Shown here one piece after another: positions 7,951 through 49,278 of a stretch of DNA of 64,000 nucleotides. Below the pieces are notes generated by a model that worked only from the letters and a program-made list of their open reading frames with translations, ran no database searches and had not been told where the DNA came from. The DNA lies in assembly GCA_016214845.1 (NCBI GenBank), contig JACRMS010000036.1, positions 1 to 64,000 of the forward strand, given 5' to 3'. Position 1 is the stretch's first letter; every line of letters begins with the position of its first letter. The DNA is from Nitrospirota bacterium. GTDB lineage: Bacteria; Nitrospirota; Thermodesulfovibrionia; UBA6902. The translations under genes and the position numbers were made by a program.

Positions 7951-8871
7951 TTAAAAATTTTCCTCTATATACTTTACTGCCGCCATCGCGGCTGTGGCGC
8001 CGTCGCCGACAGCGGTGGCTATCTGCTTTAAAGGCTTGCTCCTCACATCTCCCGCGGCGTATATCCCCGGGGCGGAGGCCGCCATATTCTTATCGGTGAT
8101 GATGTAGTTGCTTTCATCAAGGTCTACCAGGCCCCTGAGAAACTCGGTATTCGGATTATAGCCTATATAAATGAAGACCCCCTGTACATCGAGCACCAGG
8201 TTTTCGCAGGCCTTCAGGTCCCTGATGTGCAGCGCGTTAACGCCGTCATCGCCGGATATCTTTTCCGGGACAGCGGTCCATATGAATTTTATCTTCGGGT
8301 TTGAGAAAGCCCTCTCCTGCAATATCTTCTCCGCCCTGAGCTGGTCTCTCCTGTGGATGACGTAAACCATCTCCGCGAATTTCGTGAGGAATATCGCCTC
8401 CTGCACAGCGGAGTCGCCTCCGCCCACAACGGCAATCTTCTTGCCTTTGTAAAAGGCCCCGTCACAGGTCGCGCAGTATGAGACACCCCTGCCGCGGAAC
8501 TCGTCCTCTCCCTGGATCTTCAGTAGCCTCGGATGAGCCCCGGTCGCAAGTATAAGGCTTTTGGCTTCATAACGCTGATCGCCTTCAAGGACCATTTCTA
8601 TGATTTTCTTATTTACAGAAATATCAATGACAGTCCCCTGTGTGATCTCAAGGCCGAACCTTGTTGCCTGCTTTTCCATTTTCTGGGCCAGTTCAACGCC
8701 CATAATGCCTTCTTCAAACCCGGGGTAATTCTCAACCCATTCAGTGGTTGTGACCAGACCGCCGGGCAGGCCTTTCTCGATAAGCAGGCTCTTCAGCCTT
8801 GCCCTTGCAGTATAAAGCCCTGCCGTAAGTCCGGCAGGGCCTCCTCCGATAATTACAACGTCATAGAGCAT
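7951..8871 (-). CDS. trxB: thioredoxin-disulfide reductase
   Basis: TrxB passes electrons from NADPH through FAD and a CxxC pair to thioredoxin. The 306 residues show the FAD-binding start VVIIGGGPAGLTAGLYTARA and the redox pair C133-x-x-C136 in SYCATCDGAF. The nucleotide domain carries VVGGGDSAVQEA plus HRRDQLRA, the basic pattern for NADPH. The final FAD motif is GIYAAGDV. It lies 6 bases after trxA, forming a trxA-trxB operon. Confidence 0.95.
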   Translation of the reverse strand: MLYDVVIIGGGPAGLTAGLYTARARLKSLLIEKGLPGGLVTTTEWVENYPGFEEGIMGVELAQKMEKQATRFGLEITQGTVIDISVNKKIIEMVLEGDQRYEAKSLILATGAHPRLLKIQGEDEFRGRGVSYCATCDGAFYKGKKIAVVGGGDSAVQEAIFLTKFAEMVYVIHRRDQLRAEKILQERAFSNPKIKFIWTAVPEKISGDDGVNALHIRDLKACENLVLDVQGVFIYIGYNPNTEFLRGLVDLDESNYIITDKNMAASAPGIYAAGDVRSKPLKQIATAVGDGATAAMAAVKYIEENF

Positions 8872-8877
8872 ATTTTT

Positions 8878-9207
8878 TTACATCAGGGAATCGATCTTGG
8901 ATTTGAGCTGGCCTTTCGGCACTGCGCCAACTACCTGATCGAGCATCTTTCCGTTTTTGAAAAATATTAAAGTGGGAATGCCTCTTATATTATAGCGGCT
9001 TGCGAGGTCCGGGTTTTCATCCGTATTTACCTTTGCAAAGGCGACCTTGCCTGTATATTCTTTTGCAAGCTCTTCAACAACAGGGGCTATTATTTTGCAC
9101 GGGCCGCACCATGTTGCCCAGAAATCAACCATCACGAGAGTAGATGCCTGCAGAACCACTTCATTAAAAGAAGAGTCCCCTGTAACACTTGTAACTGCGC
9201 CTGACAT
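8878..9207 (-). CDS. trxA: thioredoxin
   Basis: This is a general cytoplasmic dithiol reductant. The 109-residue protein has the active site WATWCGPCKI with C34 and C37, and a cis-proline in IRGIPTLIFFKNG near residue 75. It has no signal peptide. It is first in the trxA-trxB pair. A second thioredoxin-fold protein, with UGA in place of the first cysteine, is encoded at 48651-49010. Confidence 0.96.
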   Translation of the reverse strand: MSGAVTSVTGDSSFNEVVLQASTLVMVDFWATWCGPCKIIAPVVEELAKEYTGKVAFAKVNTDENPDLASRYNIRGIPTLIFFKNGKMLDQVVGAVPKGQLKSKIDSLM

Positions 9208-18173: not shown

Positions 18174-18374
18174 TCATCCGCCTCCGACAAAATTCACAAC
18201 CTCTACTGCATCGCCGTCTTTAAGGACATGATTCTGAAAATCGCATTTTTTAATAATATTCAGATTTACCTCAACAGCGACCCTTGCAGGTTCAATCCGC
18301 AATGTCTCAAGAAGTCCGGCGACTGTGAGGTTGTCATTTAGATCAGTTTCGTTTCCGTTTAATTTTATTTTCAT
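18174..18374 (-). CDS. thiS: sulfur carrier protein ThiS
   Basis: ThiS is a small ubiquitin-fold carrier. Its C-terminal Gly-Gly is adenylated and thiocarboxylated before giving sulfur to ThiG. The 66 residues start MKIKLNGNETDLNDNLTVAG, with the expected LLETLRIEPARVAVEVNLNI, and end VVNFVGGG. The start overlaps the stop of the upstream HydG-like gene by four bases. ThiF, needed for activation, is not in the window. Confidence 0.94.
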   Translation of the reverse strand: MKIKLNGNETDLNDNLTVAGLLETLRIEPARVAVEVNLNIIKKCDFQNHVLKDGDAVEVVNFVGGG

Positions 18375-19675
18375 ATATGAATATCTCTCTTCCCTTTTTC
18401 TATTAATTTGAATTTCTCAGCGAGGCCGTTTGCGCTCTTTGTAAGCTCTGCGTCCAGGATTTTTCGCAATTGTTCCTTCACTTCATCTGAAGCGCAGTCT
18501 TCCATATATTCTTTGAGCGAGAGGACTGCATTCTCGTGACAGAAGTTTTTAATTGTTTCCCCCTCTGCAAGATGCCTGAAAGTCTCACCGCTTCTTCCCT
18601 CTCTGTAGCAGGCCGTGCAGAGACTCGGCATAAGACCGAGACTTACGATCTTGCCGATAATTTCTTCAAGCCCTCTTGTGTCGCCTATCTCAAATTGCTC
18701 GGTATCGCCGTCATGCAGATATCCCGAAGGGCTGGTCTTAGATCCCGCTGATATCTGCGATGCGCCGATGCACAGCAATTCGTCCCTCAAACCGGCATGC
18801 TCTCGTGTGGAGACAACAACTCCGACATACGGGAGCGCCAATCTGTAAATGGCGACTATTTTTTTGAAATCATCGTCAGAAACCCTGTAACGGGAAGTTA
18901 TCTGCGAACCCTGCGCGGGCTGAAGCCGTGGGACCGAGAGGGTATGAGGCCCGAAACCGTATTTGCTTATCAGTCTTTTGCTGTGCGCGATCAAGGCCCC
19001 GACTTCCCAGCGCCAGTCATAAAGGCCAAGCAGCACGCCCATTCCGACGTCTTCAAACCCGGCCTCAATAGCCCTGTCCATTGCATTGAGCCTCCAGGCA
19101 TAATCTGATTTCGGTCCCGTTGGATGCATATGCCTGTACGTAGGGATGTGATAGGTCTCCTGAAAACACTGATACACGCCGATGCCGGAACTCTTTAATC
19201 TCTTGAAATCCTCCACGCTCATCGGCGCCGCGTTTGCGTGTAAAATGCGGATGTCCGTGCTCTCATAGATCGCGCGGACAACCTTTTCAATGTAATCAAT
19301 GCCCGCAAGTTTTGTGTGCTCGCTTGCCACGAGAAGTAATCTTTTATATCCCCTGCCGGACAAAAGTTTTGCTTCCTGCACCGCTTCATCCACACTCAAT
19401 GTCTTTCTTCGCGCATCCCGGTTGCCCGTCCTGAAGCCGCAGTAGAGGCAGTCGTTCGTGCATTCATTGGAAAGATATAGAGGCGCAAAAAGGACGATCC
19501 TTTTTCCGTATACTTTTTCCTTTACCCTGCGCGCCGTATCAAGCGCTTCCAGCCAGAGGTCTTTGTCCTCAAGCGCCAAAAGCGCAGACACTTCAGTGAG
19601 ATTTAAAACCTGCATCTCAAGTGATTTGGCGAGGATTTCTTTGATGCGGGAGGAATCTGTGTTTATGTGTTTCAT
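18371..19675 (-). CDS. HydG-like radical SAM tyrosine lyase in the ThiH position
   Basis: The start at 19675 (MKHINTDSSRIK) is preferred over an upstream frame that runs through a repeat. Radical SAM cysteines C72, C76 and C79 occur in NECTNDCLYCGF. The core has LLLVASEHTKLAGIDY, YQCFQETYHIPTYRHMHPTG, GVLLGLYDWRWE and SVPRLQPAQGS, shared by ThiH and HydG. Unlike classical ThiH (about 375 residues) it has the C-terminal domain of HydG with C353-x2-C356-x22-C379, the second-cluster motif, and 434 residues. It is preceded by a TPP riboswitch and followed by thiS-thiG-thiE-thiC. Its expected role is cleaving tyrosine to dehydroglycine for ThiG. No hydE, hydF or hydrogenase gene is in view. Confidence 0.9.
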   Translation of the reverse strand: MKHINTDSSRIKEILAKSLEMQVLNLTEVSALLALEDKDLWLEALDTARRVKEKVYGKRIVLFAPLYLSNECTNDCLYCGFRTGNRDARRKTLSVDEAVQEAKLLSGRGYKRLLLVASEHTKLAGIDYIEKVVRAIYESTDIRILHANAAPMSVEDFKRLKSSGIGVYQCFQETYHIPTYRHMHPTGPKSDYAWRLNAMDRAIEAGFEDVGMGVLLGLYDWRWEVGALIAHSKRLISKYGFGPHTLSVPRLQPAQGSQITSRYRVSDDDFKKIVAIYRLALPYVGVVVSTREHAGLRDELLCIGASQISAGSKTSPSGYLHDGDTEQFEIGDTRGLEEIIGKIVSLGLMPSLCTACYREGRSGETFRHLAEGETIKNFCHENAVLSLKEYMEDCASDEVKEQLRKILDAELTKSANGLAEKFKLIEKGKRDIHI

Positions 19676-19688
19676 AATTAATACCTTT

Positions 19689-19717
19689 GTAAGGGCGGGT
19701 TTAAAACTCGCCCCTAC
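19689..19717. repeat. GC-rich palindrome (GTAAGGGCGGGTTT.. family)
   Basis: A 29-base palindrome of the AGGGGCGGGTTT / AAACCCGCCCCT family, slightly diverged. It lies between the riboswitch terminator and the HydG-like start codon. Related copies lie at 22290, 39742, 48616 and 61829. Confidence 0.75.
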
Positions 19718-19724
19718 CACAAAC

Positions 19725-19768: not shown

Positions 19769-19780
19769 CATCACGTTCTG

Positions 19781-19876
19781 CTCTTCCCTTTCCTTCGCTG
19801 GTATTACCCGGTTCAGGTTCAGAGGGTCTTCCCGGCACTGCGGAAACTCTCAGGCTGTAAAGCCTCCCCTAGGGTA
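19781..19876 (-). promoter_or_regulatory. TPP riboswitch (THI element)
   Basis: The minus strand carries the conserved THI-box parts in order: a 5' stem near AGGGGAGGCT, then GCCTGAGAGT (the CUGAGA pyrimidine-sensing loop), then CCCTCTGAACCTGAACCGGG, then GGTAATACCAGCGAAGGAA. These bind thiamine pyrophosphate. It stands directly upstream of the hydG-like/thiS/thiG/thiE/thiC operon. Confidence 0.95.
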
Positions 19877-19927
19877 TTTAAAGTATACTGCTATCAAAGA
19901 AATGGTGTCAAGCGTAACACACGGGCA

Positions 19928-28657: not shown

Positions 28658-31600
28658 TCAGTCTCCGATGCCGGGGCCCGGAGCTTTGCCATAAAATTTG
28701 CGCCAGATGTTGAAGTCCTGTATCCAAACAGTTCCGTTGCCATCCACATCGATATCAGCCGGGGCTCCTTGCGCAACGGTCTTGCCGGCCCACTTGCGCC
28801 ATTCGTTAAAGTCGATGATATTTACAAACCCGCTCTCGTCAAAATCCGGATCGCACAAATTCCCATAATGCTGTATTCCGGCTGCTGCATTATTATCATC
28901 CTCATTTGCATTACTGTCCATCTGATCAGCATTCGCCACCAACCTGCAATTATCACAGGCATCACCAACTCCGTCAGCGTCCGCATCTTCCTGGGCTGGA
29001 TTTGCAATGTAAGGACAATTGTCGGAAGCATCTGGAATTCCATCCACATCTGCATCAATCAAATCCGAGCCGTCGCAGTCTTCGTCAATGCCGTTGTTCG
29101 GTATCTCAACTGCTCCCGGATGAATTGACGCGTTATTGTCATCGCAGTCAAATGCGGTTATTCCATCTACCGTCACGTTCAACAACCCGGCATTGTCCCA
29201 GTAAAATCCGGGCTCGCTCGATGGATAGCCGAATTGCTGGGCATCGGCAAAACCAAGATACAGTCTGGTCGCTCCCGCAGGCACGTGGAAGTTCTGTGTA
29301 ACTCCAGTGCCTGTTCCGGTCAGCCCGTCTCCTATGAAAAAGGTCTGATTCAACTCCGGGAAAATATCAAAGAAGCTGTCGCCCATTCCATCAGGGGCCT
29401 GCGTGAAGTCCAGACGCGAAGGCGCAGGGCCGGCTGGTTCATTGTCATTAAGGAACACACCTGCAAGGAACATCGTCTTGCCCGGCACGTACGGAAGGGT
29501 CTGCGGATCAGTTGTGAGATCGCCGCGCCCGTATACAATCCCCGATATGCCAAGATACGAAAGTATGTCTGTTGTGCCGCTGGCATTATCTCCGCCGTCC
29601 GGGCCGTTAAACGCAGGCGGATAAGTACCGCAGCAGGACACTTTGCCGTTGACATCGCTGAATGTAATCGAAGATGCGCTTCCTCCGGCAAAACTGACAA
29701 CCGGCGGCATGAGTCCGTCAAATGCGGATGCCCTCCCTGCCGCAAAGATATTTGCCCTTCCATCAACAGCCAATGTTACAACTCCTGAATAATACCCGTC
29801 GCCGTCAAGGTCATTATCTTTAGTGGCTGTGTTGCAGTCGTCATCTTTGCCGTTGTACGGTATTTCTGCCGCGCCCGGATTGACCGAAGGGTCATTGTCG
29901 TTGCAATCGGAACCCTCACCGTGGCCGTCAAGGTCCGCATCCACGTCTGATGTGTTGGCGTTGCAGTCATCGTCAATTCCGTTATTAAGTATCTCAGTCG
30001 CTCCCGGATGTACTGCAGGGTCATTGTCATTACAGTCAATGCAACTGGCGTAACCGTCTCCGTCAAGATCATCAAAACCCTCATCAATCTGTCCGTTACA
30101 ATTGTTATCTATGCCGTCGCAGTCTTCCACTGCACCCGGGTTGACATAGTAATTCCAGTCATCACAATCTCCGCCGCAGTCTGTGTAACCGTCACCATCG
30201 TTGTCAACCGCATTCTCATCAATCTGTCCGTCACAGTTGTTGTCTTTGCCGTCACAAATTTCCTGGGCCCATGGATTGACGGTTGGGTCGTTATCATTGC
30301 AGTCGCCTCCGCAGGCTGAGTACCAGCCATCGCCGTCAAGGTCGAACTCTTCGTCTGCTACGCCATTGCAGTTGTTGTCAATGCCGTCACACAACTCCGG
30401 CGCATTCAGGTAAACCGCAGGGTTTGAATCGTCGCAGTCGCCGTCGCAGATCACATCATGGCCGTCACCGTCCACATCATCGCCGCGTACACATGCCGGC
30501 TCAAATTCCACTACATAACCAGGCAATAATTCCTCACCTGTCGCGTCATTCCACTCTTTGCCGGACGAGGTGATAGCGTGAGCAAAGTGGATGCTGTTTT
30601 CATTTCCGAAGTTATTGGGCTCTCCCGCGCCCCAGTTTGTAAAGGAGCTGAAGTTTTCGTTTGTGACCCATTTCCATCCGCCGTCAGGTTCTGTCGAACC
30701 GGCGATCTGATAACTGCCCATCCAGTGGTCATGGAGGAAGTCCTCCCAATTATCACCGTTGCCAAGTTCGGGATGATTTGTGAGGAAAAGGCTTTCTCCA
30801 ACGGATGCTATGGTTACAAGATGCCCCGGCAGTCCCATATATGTCAGGCCTTCAGCGGCGGTCTTTGCATCATTCCAGTTAATACCGGGCACATCGACTC
30901 TTATGTAGTAATGTCCGTTGTCCAGCCACTGTACGGGTTGATCATGGGTGTAAGGATTGCAATCATCGTCTTTGCCGTTAAACAGGATCTCTACAGCGGA
31001 CGGATTTACTGCGCTATCGTTATCGTTACAATCCCCTGTGCAGGCTGTATAACCATCGCCGTCAAAATCTTCGTCAATATTTCCGTCGCAATTGTTATCT
31101 ATACCATCGCAGATTTCCAACGCGCCGGGATGGACGAAAGAATCCCAGTCATCGCAGTCTCCGGCACAGGTAGTGTATCCATCCCCGTCATTGTCAAAAC
31201 CTTCATCAACATTGCCGTCGCAATTGTTATCTTTGCCGTCACATATCTCCCATGCGCCGGGATTGACTGCCGGATCATTATCATCGCAGTCGCCTTGACA
31301 GTTGGTGTAGCGGTCACCATCATTGTCTTTGGCAAGCCCTTCATCAATATCATCGTTACAGTTATTGTCAATGCCGTCACATATCTCTACGACGCCGGGA
31401 TGAATGGCCGGATCATTGTCATTGCAATCGCCTCCACAAATTGTGTCATAACCGTCGCCGTCAAGGTCAGGCCCCGGAATGCAGATAAATGCGCCGCCAG
31501 TTGGATGTGCCAGTCGAACGGGGATCAGGGAACCGATCTTTGCAATAACGTCTACAGACCCGCTTCGTCCTTCATACACCCTGAATTGTCCGAGCTGAGG

Positions 31601-34600
31601 GCTGTTTAGAAAGTAAATGTAATCAGCGTTCTGTTCAGGCGTATTTCCGGTATTCATTGTTACTACGAGCGACATGGTATCGTTCCAGGTTTGAGCGTCC
31701 AGAGCGGCATTCCCAGAACTGGTCTTTACAGAAAAATCAAACCTGCTCTCCGGGATTATGGCTGTCTTGGCGAACCATGTGCCGTTGGTGTAAGTCAATG
31801 TTGCTATCCTGAATTCATCACCTGCGGAAACAGCCTGATTGTTCACAGTCGTTGCCGCAAGCATATTATGTTCGTCATCCATTCCGCTGTTTGGACTGTT
31901 GCTGTTATATCTGTTCCAGAATTCTACACTTGCCCGCTTCGGGTTGCCATTGGATTGAAGGCCGGGGTAAGCGACTGCGTTTGGAATAAAACTGCCGCTT
32001 CCTGTTCCGTAGCCATACATGATGGAAGCACTCGCAGGTAAGATTATCGTGGTAAATGTCTCATCCAGAACACTCGCCCCAAGTTTGAAGTAAGAATCGT
32101 AGTAATCCTTTCCAAGCGGCCCGGAGTAACCCTGAAACTCGAATATCGTCCCGACACTGCCGTTGCAATTAGTGTCTGCTGAGTCGATTATTCCGTCACA
32201 ATCATTATCCAGTCCGTCAAAACATGATGCCTCAGGATTTTCAGCCGGACTGCCGATGGCGCATGTATCAACCTGTACGCCGTTCTGACAGATTATTGCT
32301 CCTGTCGAGGCGCAAACGCCTGTTCCGCAGGTTGTAGGAATCTGCTGAAAGTTAGCGCCGCAGGTCAGGCTGAATATAGCAGTAACTGACTTTGCCGCGT
32401 CCATTGTTACAATACAAGCGCCTGTCCCTGAACATGCTCCGCCCCATCCTGTAAATATGGAGCCGGGAGATGCTGAAGCTGAGAGATCGACAAGTGTATT
32501 GTAATCGTATAACTCTGAACAGTCAGCCCCGCAGTCTATCCCGGCAGGAGTGCTTGTTACCGTGCCGTTTCCTGTGCCTGGCTTGTTTACTATGAGGGCA
32601 TAAGTATTAAGTGTGAAGTCGGCTGTAACCGATTTTGCGTTATCTATCGTTACCTCGCATACTCCTGTGCTGGTGCAGGCCCCTGACCACCCTGTGAATG
32701 TGGAGCCTGTATCAGGAACTGCAGACAGTTCAACATATGTATCATAATCATACGGTTCAGTGCAGTCAGCCCCGCAGTTTATCCCGGCAGGTAAACTTGT
32801 GACAACGCCGCCTCCAGTGCCCGTTTTACTTACCATCAGGTCATAGGTATCCAGTGTGAAGCCGGCAGTAACGAACCTTGCCGCATCCATCGTTACTATG
32901 CAACTGCCAGTCCCTGAACAAGCCCCTGACCACCCTGCAAATGTAGAGCCTGTGTCTGCAACAGCAGAGAGAGTAACTTCGGTATTATAGTTATAAACCT
33001 CTGTGCAGTCATTGCCGCAGTTAATACCGGCAGGAAGGCTTGTTACAGTTCCGGAACCGTTTCCGCTGATGTTTACCGTGAGGGTCAGATCGCGAAGATA
33101 TATCCGAACAGGGACATTGCTTGTACTTGTAGTCCCGTCTCCAAGCAATTGATTTCCCCAGGCCCATAATGTCCCGTCTGACTTAAGGGCTCTGTTGTGC
33201 CAGGTCCCTGCTGACATTGAGACCCAGTTGGTATCAGCCCCTATCTGAAGAGGAGTTGTTGAACAAGGATTACTCCCACAGGTTTGCGGCCCAGTACTAT
33301 TCCCTATTCCAAGCGTGCCGGCTATATTAGTCCCCCATGACCATAATGTCCCGTCTGATTTGAGGGCTATCGTATGATCTAATCCCGCAGAGGCAGAGAC
33401 CCAGTTATCGTCAGTGCCGATCTGAACAGGTGAATATTGATTCGTTGTCGGCCCGTCTCCAAGTTGGCCAGATGAATTAGCCCCCCATGCCCATAATGTC
33501 CCGTCTGATTTAATGGCTATAGTATGAGCCCCACCAGCAGAAACAGAGACCCAGTCAGTATCAGTACCTATCTTACGAGGAGTTGTTGAACAAATAATAC
33601 TCCCACAGAGTTGAGGACCGAAAGCATTCCCGATTCCAAGCTCGCCATTATAGTTTCTTCCCCATGACCATAATGTCCCGTCTGCTTTGAGGGCTATTAT
33701 GTGCCCCGCTCCGGTTGAGGCAGAGACCCAGTCATTGTCAGTTCCTACCTTAAGAGGAATAAAACTATCAGTATTAGATGTCCCGTTTCCAAGCTGGCCA
33801 ACCCTGCCATATCCCCAGACCCATAAGGTCCCGTCTGACTTAATGGCTAAACTGCTATACCCGTCGGCAGAAACAGATAGCCAATTGCCACCTATCTGAA
33901 GAGGAATTACTGAACAAGCATGAGTATTACAGAGTTGCGGACCACCAATAACATTTACTCCAAGCTCGCCGAATTCATTACCTCCCCATGACCATAATGT
34001 CCCGTTTGATTTGAGGGCTATGGTATGAGACCCTCCGGCAGAAATAGAGGCCCAGTTATTGCCAGTCCCTATCTGACCAGGAAATAATTTATTTGTTAAA
34101 GTCCCGTCTCCAAGCTGGCCCCTGTAATTATATCCCCATGACCATAATGTCCCGTCTGTATTTATGGCTTCAGAGTGACCACCTCCATCAGACAAAACTA
34201 TGCAGGGTGAAGTTGAAAGGGTAGCAGTCATATTAGCGCCTGATGCACTTATGCTGGTAATATTCGCACCACAGGAAGATCCATTGTAGAGACTGCTGTT
34301 TGGACTTGAAGCAGAAGTAAACGAGGTTTTAGTTGTTGAGCCGGGATAGGGGTCTCCGTCGTCTCCAAGGTTGCTCTTGGTTTCAAGCTCCCACAGGTCA
34401 TCCGCCTGTACAATCCTGACGCCGTAATGTTTTACAGCGCATGATAACCCGAATGAAGACCCGGATACAGGAAGACACTCCTTATTGTTAACTTTATTCG
34501 CCCCCCTTTCTCTCGCAATTGTAGTGCCGTCAATATGCCAGATAAGAAGTCCTACCCCCGGCAGTCCCGCGTCGAATCCGACCTGTTGCCTGTTTTCCAC

Positions 34601-35893
34601 AAGGAAGTATTCACCTGACAGAGGAGTTCCCGTTCTGATCTGGTAGACATCTGCATTGGTGGCCGCCTGCTGTATAGACTCTGAAGTTAGCGTCCCTGTT
34701 ACCTGAGCGGGCGTCACCCAGCCGAGAAAATATTTAGACCACGCATCCAGATGAGCAGGCCGGTCGCCGGAACGCGCTCCGCGCGTTATACCGTTCCACG
34801 AGCCGTGCGCCATCACGCTCCAGTTGCCGATGCTGTAAGAACTGTCGTCTGTATCATAGAGGTCGGGAAGCCCGAGCGCATGGCCGTACTCGTGTGCAAA
34901 CACGCCGACAGTAGATATTTGCCCATCAGGAGCATATACCTCCGGTTCTATCACATAGTCATTTACCTTGATAAAGCCGCCGGATGGACATGGATCATCT
35001 GTCGTATATTCCCCGACCCCTGCGTCTGTAAGGTTCCACCTGTGAGACCATATATCAGATGTATTCCCGCTCGCTTCCTCGCCTGTGCCCTGATGTATGA
35101 TGTTTACGGCATCAACATAACAGTCGCCGTCCTGGTCATAGGGCGCAAAATTGAACCATGCAGCATCTGCCGCAGCAACAGCCTCTCTTACCAATTCAGC
35201 AGGATGCTGATCACATCCTGACGGGTCTGCACACGGTACATTCTGTCCGTAGTAATCGTGGCCATTCCCAGCAGTATACCAGCCGGCTACTCCGCCCGGC
35301 CCTGAGGAGACAGTGAATTGTCCGTATGATACCTCTTCATAATAATCCTTCATGCTTCTGTTTCCTGTGCCGAAAAGAAGGGAGCCAAAGTCAGCAGGTG
35401 TGTAAGTAGTAGGTGATAACAGAAAGCTGATAAGAATCACAGGAATGTTGCCTGTGCCTGTAGATGGAACCGCCTGAGCTTCTATAAGACCACCCTGACG
35501 GGAGGCCCGGGGTAAGCTTGCTCCTGTCGCACGTGTTTCTCTTGTAAGCGTTTTCGCGGAGATAATTTGACCTGCCGGTCTAAGCATCAATGAAACATCA
35601 GACGCAGTGTCTTTGCCGACTACAGCCCCGGAGCTTACAAGAGTTCCATCAGCGCCACGCACTGCGTATGTCCACTTGTTGACGGACGTATCAAACAAAA
35701 TAGAATGTCCGTCCTCTGCCTCCCAACCATGACTGTTCTCATCCCCCCATTGCCTTGCCTTGAAAGCTGTGCCGTCCGGCTGATTCATTGTGTGGAGAAT
35801 TGGAGATGCTGGGACCGCAAACGACTCACTGGTGGTAAGGAAAATTGAAACTGTAACAAACAATAAAAAAATTATCTTGCCCTTGATTGACAT
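28658..35893 (-). CDS. giant secreted M6-family metalloprotease with RCC1, beta-repeat, lectin and metal-binding repeat domains
   Basis: This 2411-residue exported protein has a signal peptide (IIFLLFVTVSIFLTTSESFA). In approximate order: propeptide; M6 (immune-inhibitor-A type) protease with zinc site HEYGHALGLPD near 333; about seven RCC1 propeller repeats (564-935, each GxxHTIALKSDGTLWSWG); three 75-residue beta repeats ending GWSGACSGTG (936-1180); an unassigned beta domain (1250-1465); metal-binding repeats of the MopE type (DGDGY..C.GDC.DND..V.PGA.EICDGIDNNCDG); a C-type lectin domain (1653-1798, ending WNDATGEE and GYVVEFE); more repeats; a 210-residue inserted domain; thrombospondin-type Asp repeats; two dockerin-like segments. 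No PEP-CTERM tail is present. It is likely surface or extracellular, binding Ca2+ and glycans. Confidence 0.93.
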   Translation of the reverse strand: MSIKGKIIFLLFVTVSIFLTTSESFAVPASPILHTMNQPDGTAFKARQWGDENSHGWEAEDGHSILFDTSVNKWTYAVRGADGTLVSSGAVVGKDTASDVSLMLRPAGQIISAKTLTRETRATGASLPRASRQGGLIEAQAVPSTGTGNIPVILISFLLSPTTYTPADFGSLLFGTGNRSMKDYYEEVSYGQFTVSSGPGGVAGWYTAGNGHDYYGQNVPCADPSGCDQHPAELVREAVAAADAAWFNFAPYDQDGDCYVDAVNIIHQGTGEEASGNTSDIWSHRWNLTDAGVGEYTTDDPCPSGGFIKVNDYVIEPEVYAPDGQISTVGVFAHEYGHALGLPDLYDTDDSSYSIGNWSVMAHGSWNGITRGARSGDRPAHLDAWSKYFLGWVTPAQVTGTLTSESIQQAATNADVYQIRTGTPLSGEYFLVENRQQVGFDAGLPGVGLLIWHIDGTTIARERGANKVNNKECLPVSGSSFGLSCAVKHYGVRIVQADDLWELETKSNLGDDGDPYPGSTTKTSFTSASSPNSSLYNGSSCGANITSISASGANMTATLSTSPCIVLSDGGGHSEAINTDGTLWSWGYNYRGQLGDGTLTNKLFPGQIGTGNNWASISAGGSHTIALKSNGTLWSWGGNEFGELGVNVIGGPQLCNTHACSVIPLQIGGNWLSVSADGYSSLAIKSDGTLWVWGYGRVGQLGNGTSNTDSFIPLKVGTDNDWVSASTGAGHIIALKADGTLWSWGRNYNGELGIGNAFGPQLCGSIICSTTPRKIGTDTDWVSVSAGGAHTIAIKSDGTLWAWGANSSGQLGDGPTTNQYSPVQIGTDDNWVSASAGLDHTIALKSDGTLWSWGTNIAGTLGIGNSTGPQTCGSNPCSTTPLQIGADTNWVSMSAGTWHNRALKSDGTLWAWGNQLLGDGTTSTSNVPVRIYLRDLTLTVNISGNGSGTVTSLPAGINCGNDCTEVYNYNTEVTLSAVADTGSTFAGWSGACSGTGSCIVTMDAARFVTAGFTLDTYDLMVSKTGTGGGVVTSLPAGINCGADCTEPYDYDTYVELSAVPDTGSTFTGWSGACTSTGVCEVTIDNAKSVTADFTLNTYALIVNKPGTGNGTVTSTPAGIDCGADCSELYDYNTLVDLSASASPGSIFTGWGGACSGTGACIVTMDAAKSVTAIFSLTCGANFQQIPTTCGTGVCASTGAIICQNGVQVDTCAIGSPAENPEASCFDGLDNDCDGIIDSADTNCNGSVGTIFEFQGYSGPLGKDYYDSYFKLGASVLDETFTTIILPASASIMYGYGTGSGSFIPNAVAYPGLQSNGNPKRASVEFWNRYNSNSPNSGMDDEHNMLAATTVNNQAVSAGDEFRIATLTYTNGTWFAKTAIIPESRFDFSVKTSSGNAALDAQTWNDTMSLVVTMNTGNTPEQNADYIYFLNSPQLGQFRVYEGRSGSVDVIAKIGSLIPVRLAHPTGGAFICIPGPDLDGDGYDTICGGDCNDNDPAIHPGVVEICDGIDNNCNDDIDEGLAKDNDGDRYTNCQGDCDDNDPAVNPGAWEICDGKDNNCDGNVDEGFDNDGDGYTTCAGDCDDWDSFVHPGALEICDGIDNNCDGNIDEDFDGDGYTACTGDCNDNDSAVNPSAVEILFNGKDDDCNPYTHDQPVQWLDNGHYYIRVDVPGINWNDAKTAAEGLTYMGLPGHLVTIASVGESLFLTNHPELGNGDNWEDFLHDHWMGSYQIAGSTEPDGGWKWVTNENFSSFTNWGAGEPNNFGNENSIHFAHAITSSGKEWNDATGEELLPGYVVEFEPACVRGDDVDGDGHDVICDGDCDDSNPAVYLNAPELCDGIDNNCNGVADEEFDLDGDGWYSACGGDCNDNDPTVNPWAQEICDGKDNNCDGQIDENAVDNDGDGYTDCGGDCDDWNYYVNPGAVEDCDGIDNNCNGQIDEGFDDLDGDGYASCIDCNDNDPAVHPGATEILNNGIDDDCNANTSDVDADLDGHGEGSDCNDNDPSVNPGAAEIPYNGKDDDCNTATKDNDLDGDGYYSGVVTLAVDGRANIFAAGRASAFDGLMPPVVSFAGGSASSITFSDVNGKVSCCGTYPPAFNGPDGGDNASGTTDILSYLGISGIVYGRGDLTTDPQTLPYVPGKTMFLAGVFLNDNEPAGPAPSRLDFTQAPDGMGDSFFDIFPELNQTFFIGDGLTGTGTGVTQNFHVPAGATRLYLGFADAQQFGYPSSEPGFYWDNAGLLNVTVDGITAFDCDDNNASIHPGAVEIPNNGIDEDCDGSDLIDADVDGIPDASDNCPYIANPAQEDADADGVGDACDNCRLVANADQMDSNANEDDNNAAAGIQHYGNLCDPDFDESGFVNIIDFNEWRKWAGKTVAQGAPADIDVDGNGTVWIQDFNIWRKFYGKAPGPGIGD

Positions 35894-48613: not shown

Positions 48614-48615
48614 AT

Positions 48616-48643
48616 GTAGGGGCGTATTGCAATACGCCCCTAC
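48616..48643. repeat. GC-rich palindrome variant (GTAGGGGCGTATTG..)
   Basis: A perfect palindrome with the same GTAGGGGCG end as 22290-22318 but a different centre. It lies just after the lemA stop and may act as a terminator. Confidence 0.75.
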
Positions 48644-48650
48644 AATTTGA

Positions 48651-49010
48651 TCACAATTTCCCGATGATCTGCAGGGCGCTTATAAGTTGCCCTATGAAGT
48701 CTTCAGGGGTGAAATAACCTACCATCCTGTAAAGTTCATCACCGCTTACATCGAGGATAAAGAATGTCGGTGTTGCGAATATGGCGTACTTACTGAACTG
48801 TTCGGAATTTTTGCCTGATTCATATTTAACAGGGACAAAATGTTTTGCGATATGCTTCTGCACATCGGTATGGGGAAACGTACCTGTTTCCATCCTCTGG
48901 CAGGCGTCTCAGGTCGGAGAGTAAAAATCAAGCAGGACCAATTTGCCTTCTTTTTTCGCGGACTCAAGCGCCTCGTTGAGGGTTTTCATCCAGGTTATTT
49001 CATTTGCCAT
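48651..49010 (-). CDS. selenocysteine-containing thioredoxin-like protein (UxxC), in-frame UGA
   Basis: The start at 49010 has AGGAGGAATAAACA upstream. The reading frame is open for 119 residues except for TGA at codon 34 (48909-48911). The context is LLDFYSPT-U-DACQRM, so the UGA stands at the first redox position of a CxxC motif, giving U34-x-x-C37. The cis-Pro region FATPTFFILD and the ending GYFTPEDFIGQLISAL are those of thioredoxin-fold proteins. Relatives with UxxC are known selenoproteins. A stem-loop directly after the UGA (48878-48908) resembles a bacterial SECIS, with CCTG/CAGG and CCA/TGG pairs and a GAGGA apical loop. selA/selB are not in view. Without Sec the product would stop after 33 residues. 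Confidence 0.85.
48878..48908 (-). promoter_or_regulatory. candidate bacterial SECIS-like stem-loop
   Basis: Immediately after the in-frame UGA the minus strand can pair ACG with CGT, CCTG with CAGG and CCA with TGG around a GAGGA loop. The apical loop starts about 12 bases after the UGA, a little closer than most described elements. SelB recognition is inferred. Confidence 0.5.
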
Positions 49011-49278
49011 TGTTTATTCCTCCTGTTGATTTTTGATATGGAAACAACATCTTTTTTATAGTAAATCTTATTCAAACATATAGCAAGCTGTTGCTATGGC
49101 AACACACGGGTTGTATCCCCTGTACTATTAAAAAAGAAATCAGTTAAAATAGCCCATAAGATCAGGGAATGACCGAAATGATGCATTTAAAAGTTCGGTT
49201 GACAAGATAACAGTAAAGTAAGAATTTGTTAATATTGATTATTGACTTATCTAACGTTAAGAAGGGAAGCAAGCTGTC

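Follow-up and report, generated by a model that had tools for sequence, protein, structure and literature searches.

In this study, we describe a short minus-strand gene in a Nitrospirota genome in which an in-frame UGA, codon 34, very probably encodes selenocysteine in a thioredoxin-like enzyme, as judged from its sequence and that of its relatives. The gene lies within the window, by which we mean the whole stretch of 64,000 nucleotides analysed; the draft genome totals 3.4 Mb in 41 contigs, of which contig 36 contains the window. Our best explanation as a whole, the proposal of a reductase included, is that selenocysteine would be inserted at UGA 34 by way of a hairpin just downstream, giving a cytosolic thioredoxin-fold selenoprotein, and we hold it with high confidence. 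The features on which the argument turns are the following.

48651 to 49010, minus strand: predicted gene for a thioredoxin-like UxxC selenoprotein, 119 codons followed by a TGA stop, with one internal TGA
49019 to 49024, minus strand: Shine-Dalgarno sequence AGGAGG, read from the sequence, 8 nt before the ATG
48909 to 48911, minus strand: UGA codon 34, predicted to be read as selenocysteine, aligned with UGA or TGC (n=8 Cys orthologues) in homologues
48900 to 48902, minus strand: Cys37, putative resolving partner in UxxC, invariant in 26 aligned homologues
48874 to 48891, minus strand: candidate SECIS hairpin GGAAAC-AGGUAC-GUUUCC, loop 48880-48885, with covariation, synonymous constraint and loss in Cys orthologues
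48768 to 48770, minus strand: Pro81, the thioredoxin-fold cis-proline, present in all 26 homologues aligned

Gene frame and genomic setting

A sequence-only reading of this DNA had proposed a minus-strand frame from 49010 that is open except for a UGA at codon 34, placed at the first redox position with C37 as its partner and FATPTFFILD downstream, and preceded by AGGAGG. All of this is found in the sequence: the active site at codons 34-37 reads U-D-A-C, the cis-Pro stretch follows further on, and the ribosome site stands at the spacing given above, with similar G-rich sites ahead of most homologues too. The same reading had expected standard calling to cut the gene, and it does so. Under table 11, the sole ORF listed at the locus is 48651-48893, 80 aa without the active site, which routine calling loses because this ORF starts only at M40. 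Since such a piece is all that is kept, the redox enzyme would be missing or misannotated in genomes of this kind. We scanned the whole window for frames that have a Shine-Dalgarno start, are interrupted by a single UGA and lie clear of other genes; the selenoprotein gene was the only one. This, and the recurrence of its UGA in 17 short forms, puts the frame far beyond chance.

The nearest named relative, encoded in a groundwater metagenome-assembled genome of a Nitrospirae bacterium (L031), has 93% identity along the whole protein. Around the gene, conservation is confined to convergent lemA and its neighbours. No conserved operon partner was seen at the loci compared, so that gene context gives no hint of a substrate. 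Viral contigs held no relatives of the selenoprotein, and plasmid matches were distant only (29-34% identical). Between the convergent selenoprotein gene and lemA lies a perfect 30-base palindrome (48615-48644, TGTAGGGGCGTATTGCAATACGCCCCTACA), present as a single copy in the window; a similar stretch, GGGCGTATTGCAATACGCCC, stands 3′ of the gene in L004. The palindrome is probably either a terminator acting in both directions or a palindromic repeat of the dispersed type. Elsewhere in the window, we observed a TPP riboswitch (19773-19880, minus strand) upstream of a gene at 18371-19720 that scores over the cut-off for HydG and below that for ThiH, and a 2411-residue ORF with an M6 metalloprotease domain (28658-35893, minus strand).

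Conservation of the UGA codon

Homologous proteins were searched for in 61 genomes, the window's own and those of 60 relatives. Among them, 28 places carry one in-frame TGA and no further stop, and one additional place holds TGA plus TAG. The UGA falls in the identical column, followed by xxC, in 17 short forms and 8 longer forms, the short ones being spread over 17 genomes with the window's own gene counted. In G033, a second short-form copy (G033:C1:2319582-2319917) has TGA and TAG inside and is possibly a decaying paralogue.

Alignment with Cys homologues at position 34, as had been proposed from the sequence, gave either UGA or TGC there. TGC, encoding cysteine, replaces the UGA in 8 orthologues, one from the same family (G031) and seven from farther off in the phylum (G409, G259, G232, G324, G188, G089 and G102). 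The gene of G031 sits at the same chromosomal place, convergent with lemA, and this shared locus makes the Sec and Cys forms positional orthologues.

A thioredoxin gene broken by a nonsense mutation, or by a sequencing error, would also present an interrupted frame, and the genome is a draft; nothing else speaks for such an origin. Against it stand the 17 short forms with the same UGA, the orthologues with Cys at this site, the covarying hairpin described below and purifying selection on the codons downstream of the UGA, where the three closest pairs have dN/dS values of about 0.15, 0.12 and 0.22, which is not what a pseudogene would show. The sequence-only reading had set homologues ending before position 34 as the mark of a pseudogene; the homologues continue past it. 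Conservation of the UGA refutes the pseudogene reading, and we consider the chance that mutation or error accounts for the frame to be negligible.

A conserved hairpin downstream of the UGA

Comparison of homologues points to one structure as the SECIS. RNAalifold, applied to 25 UGA homologues, returned a single hairpin with columns 21-26 paired with 33-38, which corresponds to 48891-48874; it lies 17 nt downstream of the UGA, and from the UGA to its apical loop there are 23 nt. In 24 of 24 distinct sequences the stem is complete, with all six pairs (100% of cells), and with seven more homologues added (31 distinct sequences) 184 of 186 cells still pair (98.9%). Compensatory double changes occur at two of the pairs (G-C to A-U and A-U to U-A), and double-change cells number 21 as against 8.6 from shuffles of the 31 sequences. 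Sliding the partner strand by 1-3 bases brings pairing down to 17-58%. Synonymous codon identity is 0.80 at the hairpin codons vs 0.46 elsewhere in the gene, and the top window for synonymous constraint among 97 six-codon windows falls on the hairpin. In the Cys orthologues the hairpin is degraded without exception (8/8), with 1-4 of the 6 pairs left. This contrast between intact and decayed SECIS in UGA and TGC orthologues suggests that the SECIS itself may dictate the residues METGTF beside the active site.

The sequence-only reading had instead placed the SECIS in a hairpin with a GAGGA loop that directly follows the UGA (48908-48878). On paper that hairpin can form in this gene: once the bases of the UGA are folded along, the minimum-energy structures of this sequence and its nearest neighbour both contain it (-12.1 kcal/mol). 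The structure that is conserved is a different one: for the GAGGA hairpin, over the homologues only 78-82% of cells pair, with two pairs lost in about half of the sequences, and it was rejected on these counts, while the downstream hairpin with the AGGUAC loop covaries. The loop bases kept across homologues are likewise those of the downstream hairpin. Moreover, the GAGGA hairpin uses bases beside the UGA, and a ribosome with UGA in its A site covers the adjacent bases and would prevent folds that include the UGA. We thus think it very unlikely that the GAGGA hairpin is the SECIS; our comparison favours the AGGUAC-loop hairpin as the predicted element.

The bacterial consensus (bSECIS) calls for an apical loop of 3-9 nt, an upper stem of 4-16 bp, 16-37 nt from UGA to apical loop, a G within the first two loop positions, usually then G or U, and an energy of -7.5 kcal/mol or lower (PMC13188914). 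The AGGUAC-loop hairpin is within the size limits with its loop of 6 and stem of 6 pairs, its 23 nt spacing is in range, and the loop rule is observed too, since loop position 2 is G in 32/32 sequences, with G or U next in all (PMC13188914). Its six pairs by themselves have an energy of -6.6 kcal/mol; the value is -7.8 when 48897-48862 is folded and -9.1 with the 47 nt that follow the UGA, and the competing fold reaches -12.1. It is no more stable than shuffled sequence, the folds tried having z-scores of -0.2 to -1.6; as the folding energies of either hairpin are not distinct from those of shuffles, the case for the SECIS is wholly a comparative one. Annotation models can take in both the candidate SECIS and the family.

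UGA 34 might also be a regulated stop, yielding mostly a 33-residue peptide, with read-through serving as a selenium-dependent switch and not as the main purpose. At a UGA with a SECIS, a release factor is always a competitor, which lends this some sense. Yet the part after the UGA is under purifying selection and holds the fold, and in the Cys orthologues the full protein needs no recoding. We judge such a switch highly improbable, and favour selenocysteine insertion as the purpose of the codon.

Selenocysteine machinery

The selA, selB, selC and selD genes that the sequence-only reading had proposed to look for all have their counterparts in the genome. selA (1.3e-187), selB (2.2e-107) and a tRNA-Sec with anticodon UCA lie within 12 kb on contig 14, and selD (1.5e-98) is on contig 18 (G000:C18:6917-7831, L044). 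The latter has its own in-frame UGA near the N-terminus and encodes a Sec-containing selenophosphate synthetase. selA is found in nearly every relative (56 of 61 genomes, the window's included), so that the co-occurrence of sel genes with the UGA gene, though a support that the reading needs, hardly discriminates. Of the 25 genomes that carry a UGA form, three (G002, G011 and G046) gave no selA match, probably because of gaps in their draft assemblies.

Fold and proposed role of the protein

The protein scores 56.8 and 57.4 bits against Thioredoxin_2 (PF13098) and Thioredoxin_7 (PF13899), vs a cut-off of 27, and both domains are matched by 26/26 homologues; no NCBIfam model reaches its cut-off. 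A confident AlphaFold2 model (pLDDT 89.7) has DsbH and the DsbD gamma domain as its nearest solved structures, and the closest structure by sequence is 2kuc. Neither a signal sequence nor a membrane segment is visible on reading the sequence, which would place the selenoprotein in a reducing, cytosolic setting. We regard it as a cytosolic single-domain Thioredoxin_2/Thioredoxin_7 protein nearest to DsbH and the DsbD gamma domain.

Most likely, it would be a Sec-based disulfide reductase, with Sec34 attacking and Cys37 resolving; we infer reductase action (rather than that of an oxidase or isomerase), donor and substrate alike. As we envisage it, when the ribosome reaches UGA 34, SelB with Sec-tRNA(UCA) would bind the GGAAAC-AGGUAC-GUUUCC hairpin and selenocysteine would be inserted. 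In the finished protein, the Sec34 selenol would attack a disulfide in a partner protein (alternatively a peroxide or sulfenate), Cys37 would resolve the mixed selenosulfide, and the Se-S bond would be re-reduced by a dithiol or flavoprotein donor. Candidate electron donors are TrxB or TrxA, encoded elsewhere in the window at a distance of 40 kb, where trxA (8878-9207) adjoins trxB (7951-8871; span 7951-9207, minus strand).

A true selenocysteine protein could nonetheless be an oxidase, an isomerase or a peroxide-reducing enzyme instead of a disulfide reductase. The fold is common to all of these enzymes, and 2kuc is named a putative disulphide-isomerase. The nearest characterised folds, DsbH and DsbD gamma, are however reductases, TrxA/TrxB are present, and the cytosol is reducing. 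We see such a role as a serious but minority possibility, and continue to favour a disulfide reductase.

TPR-bearing relatives and evolution

The longer UGA forms belong with a second UxxC selenoprotein family of about 190-200 residues, in which the thioredoxin domain is joined to a TPR-like C-terminal half (L019-L026, L067, L070, L071, L073 and L075-L077). Its members are 30-35% identical to the window's selenoprotein and have the UGA position and the covarying SECIS hairpin in common with the short form. The family is common across the phylum, but a member did not turn up in the window's genome; neither of the two loci looked at showed a link to lemA.

In our tree, the Cys forms make up one clade (support 100/99) placed among the short Sec forms, and the long TPR-bearing Sec family is the other branch. 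The place of the Cys clade suggests from sequence a change in the direction Sec to Cys; in an AU test, a single clade of all short Sec forms was not rejected (p 0.184). The genomes with Cys forms still have tRNA-Sec, and most have selA, so that loss of the Sec trait would not be the driver of the Cys forms. A third Cys occurs in 7 of the 8 Cys forms; it occupies codon 43, the SECIS loop codon of the Sec forms. These observations can be drawn together into a tentative scenario, plausible to us though more doubtful than not: an unnamed, Nitrospirota-centred pair of UxxC families (the short one at lemA and the TPR-bearing one) would share one SECIS and an ancestral Sec; Cys would have arisen once, in place, in an organism keeping its Sec machinery; the SECIS would then have decayed, a new Cys would have appeared at the loop codon, and the Cys form would have spread between families. 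With UGA and TGC orthologues to compare, the benefit of Sec in a thioredoxin-like reductase can be tested cleanly.

Comparison with known systems

UxxC thioredoxin-like selenoproteins are, as the sequence-only reading had said, an established class: those with a thioredoxin fold have been tabulated, one of PF13098 among them (PMC13188914, PMC9312934). The PF13098 UxxC selenoproteins, labelled 'thiol:disulfide interchange protein' (for example WP_011366075.1; PMC13188914, PMC9312934), are the ones to which we liken the present protein by their features, namely a common Pfam domain, UxxC and a bacterial SECIS just after the UGA. With the Sec-containing thioredoxin (PF00085, UxxC, WP_010956703.1; PMC13188914, PMC9312934) it shares the thioredoxin fold and a UxxC active site; it differs in scoring 31 bits vs the TIGR01068 equivalog cut-off of 96.8, in lacking a WCGPC-type site and in coming from a genome with a separate, ordinary trxA.

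The DsbD gamma domain and DsbH provide the best fold matches (2ju5, 1uc7 and 2fwg); DsbD is also the best NCBIfam match by E-value, and DsbH is matched as well. Both remain under their curated cut-offs (DsbD, NF001419, 56/330 bits; DsbH, NF043050, 25.5/190 bits), and in contrast to them the selenoprotein is stand-alone and cytosolic, a single small domain without a membrane domain and with Sec for Cys. Also close are the Cys orthologues, which have the same length and sequence and, in G031, the lemA locus too, but differ by TGC at codon 34, the decayed hairpin and, in 7/8, the third Cys. We found no paper describing selenoproteins of this Nitrospirota clade in the literature searched. The kind is nevertheless one already known, and the clade would be an additional member of the UxxC thioredoxin-fold selenoproteins.
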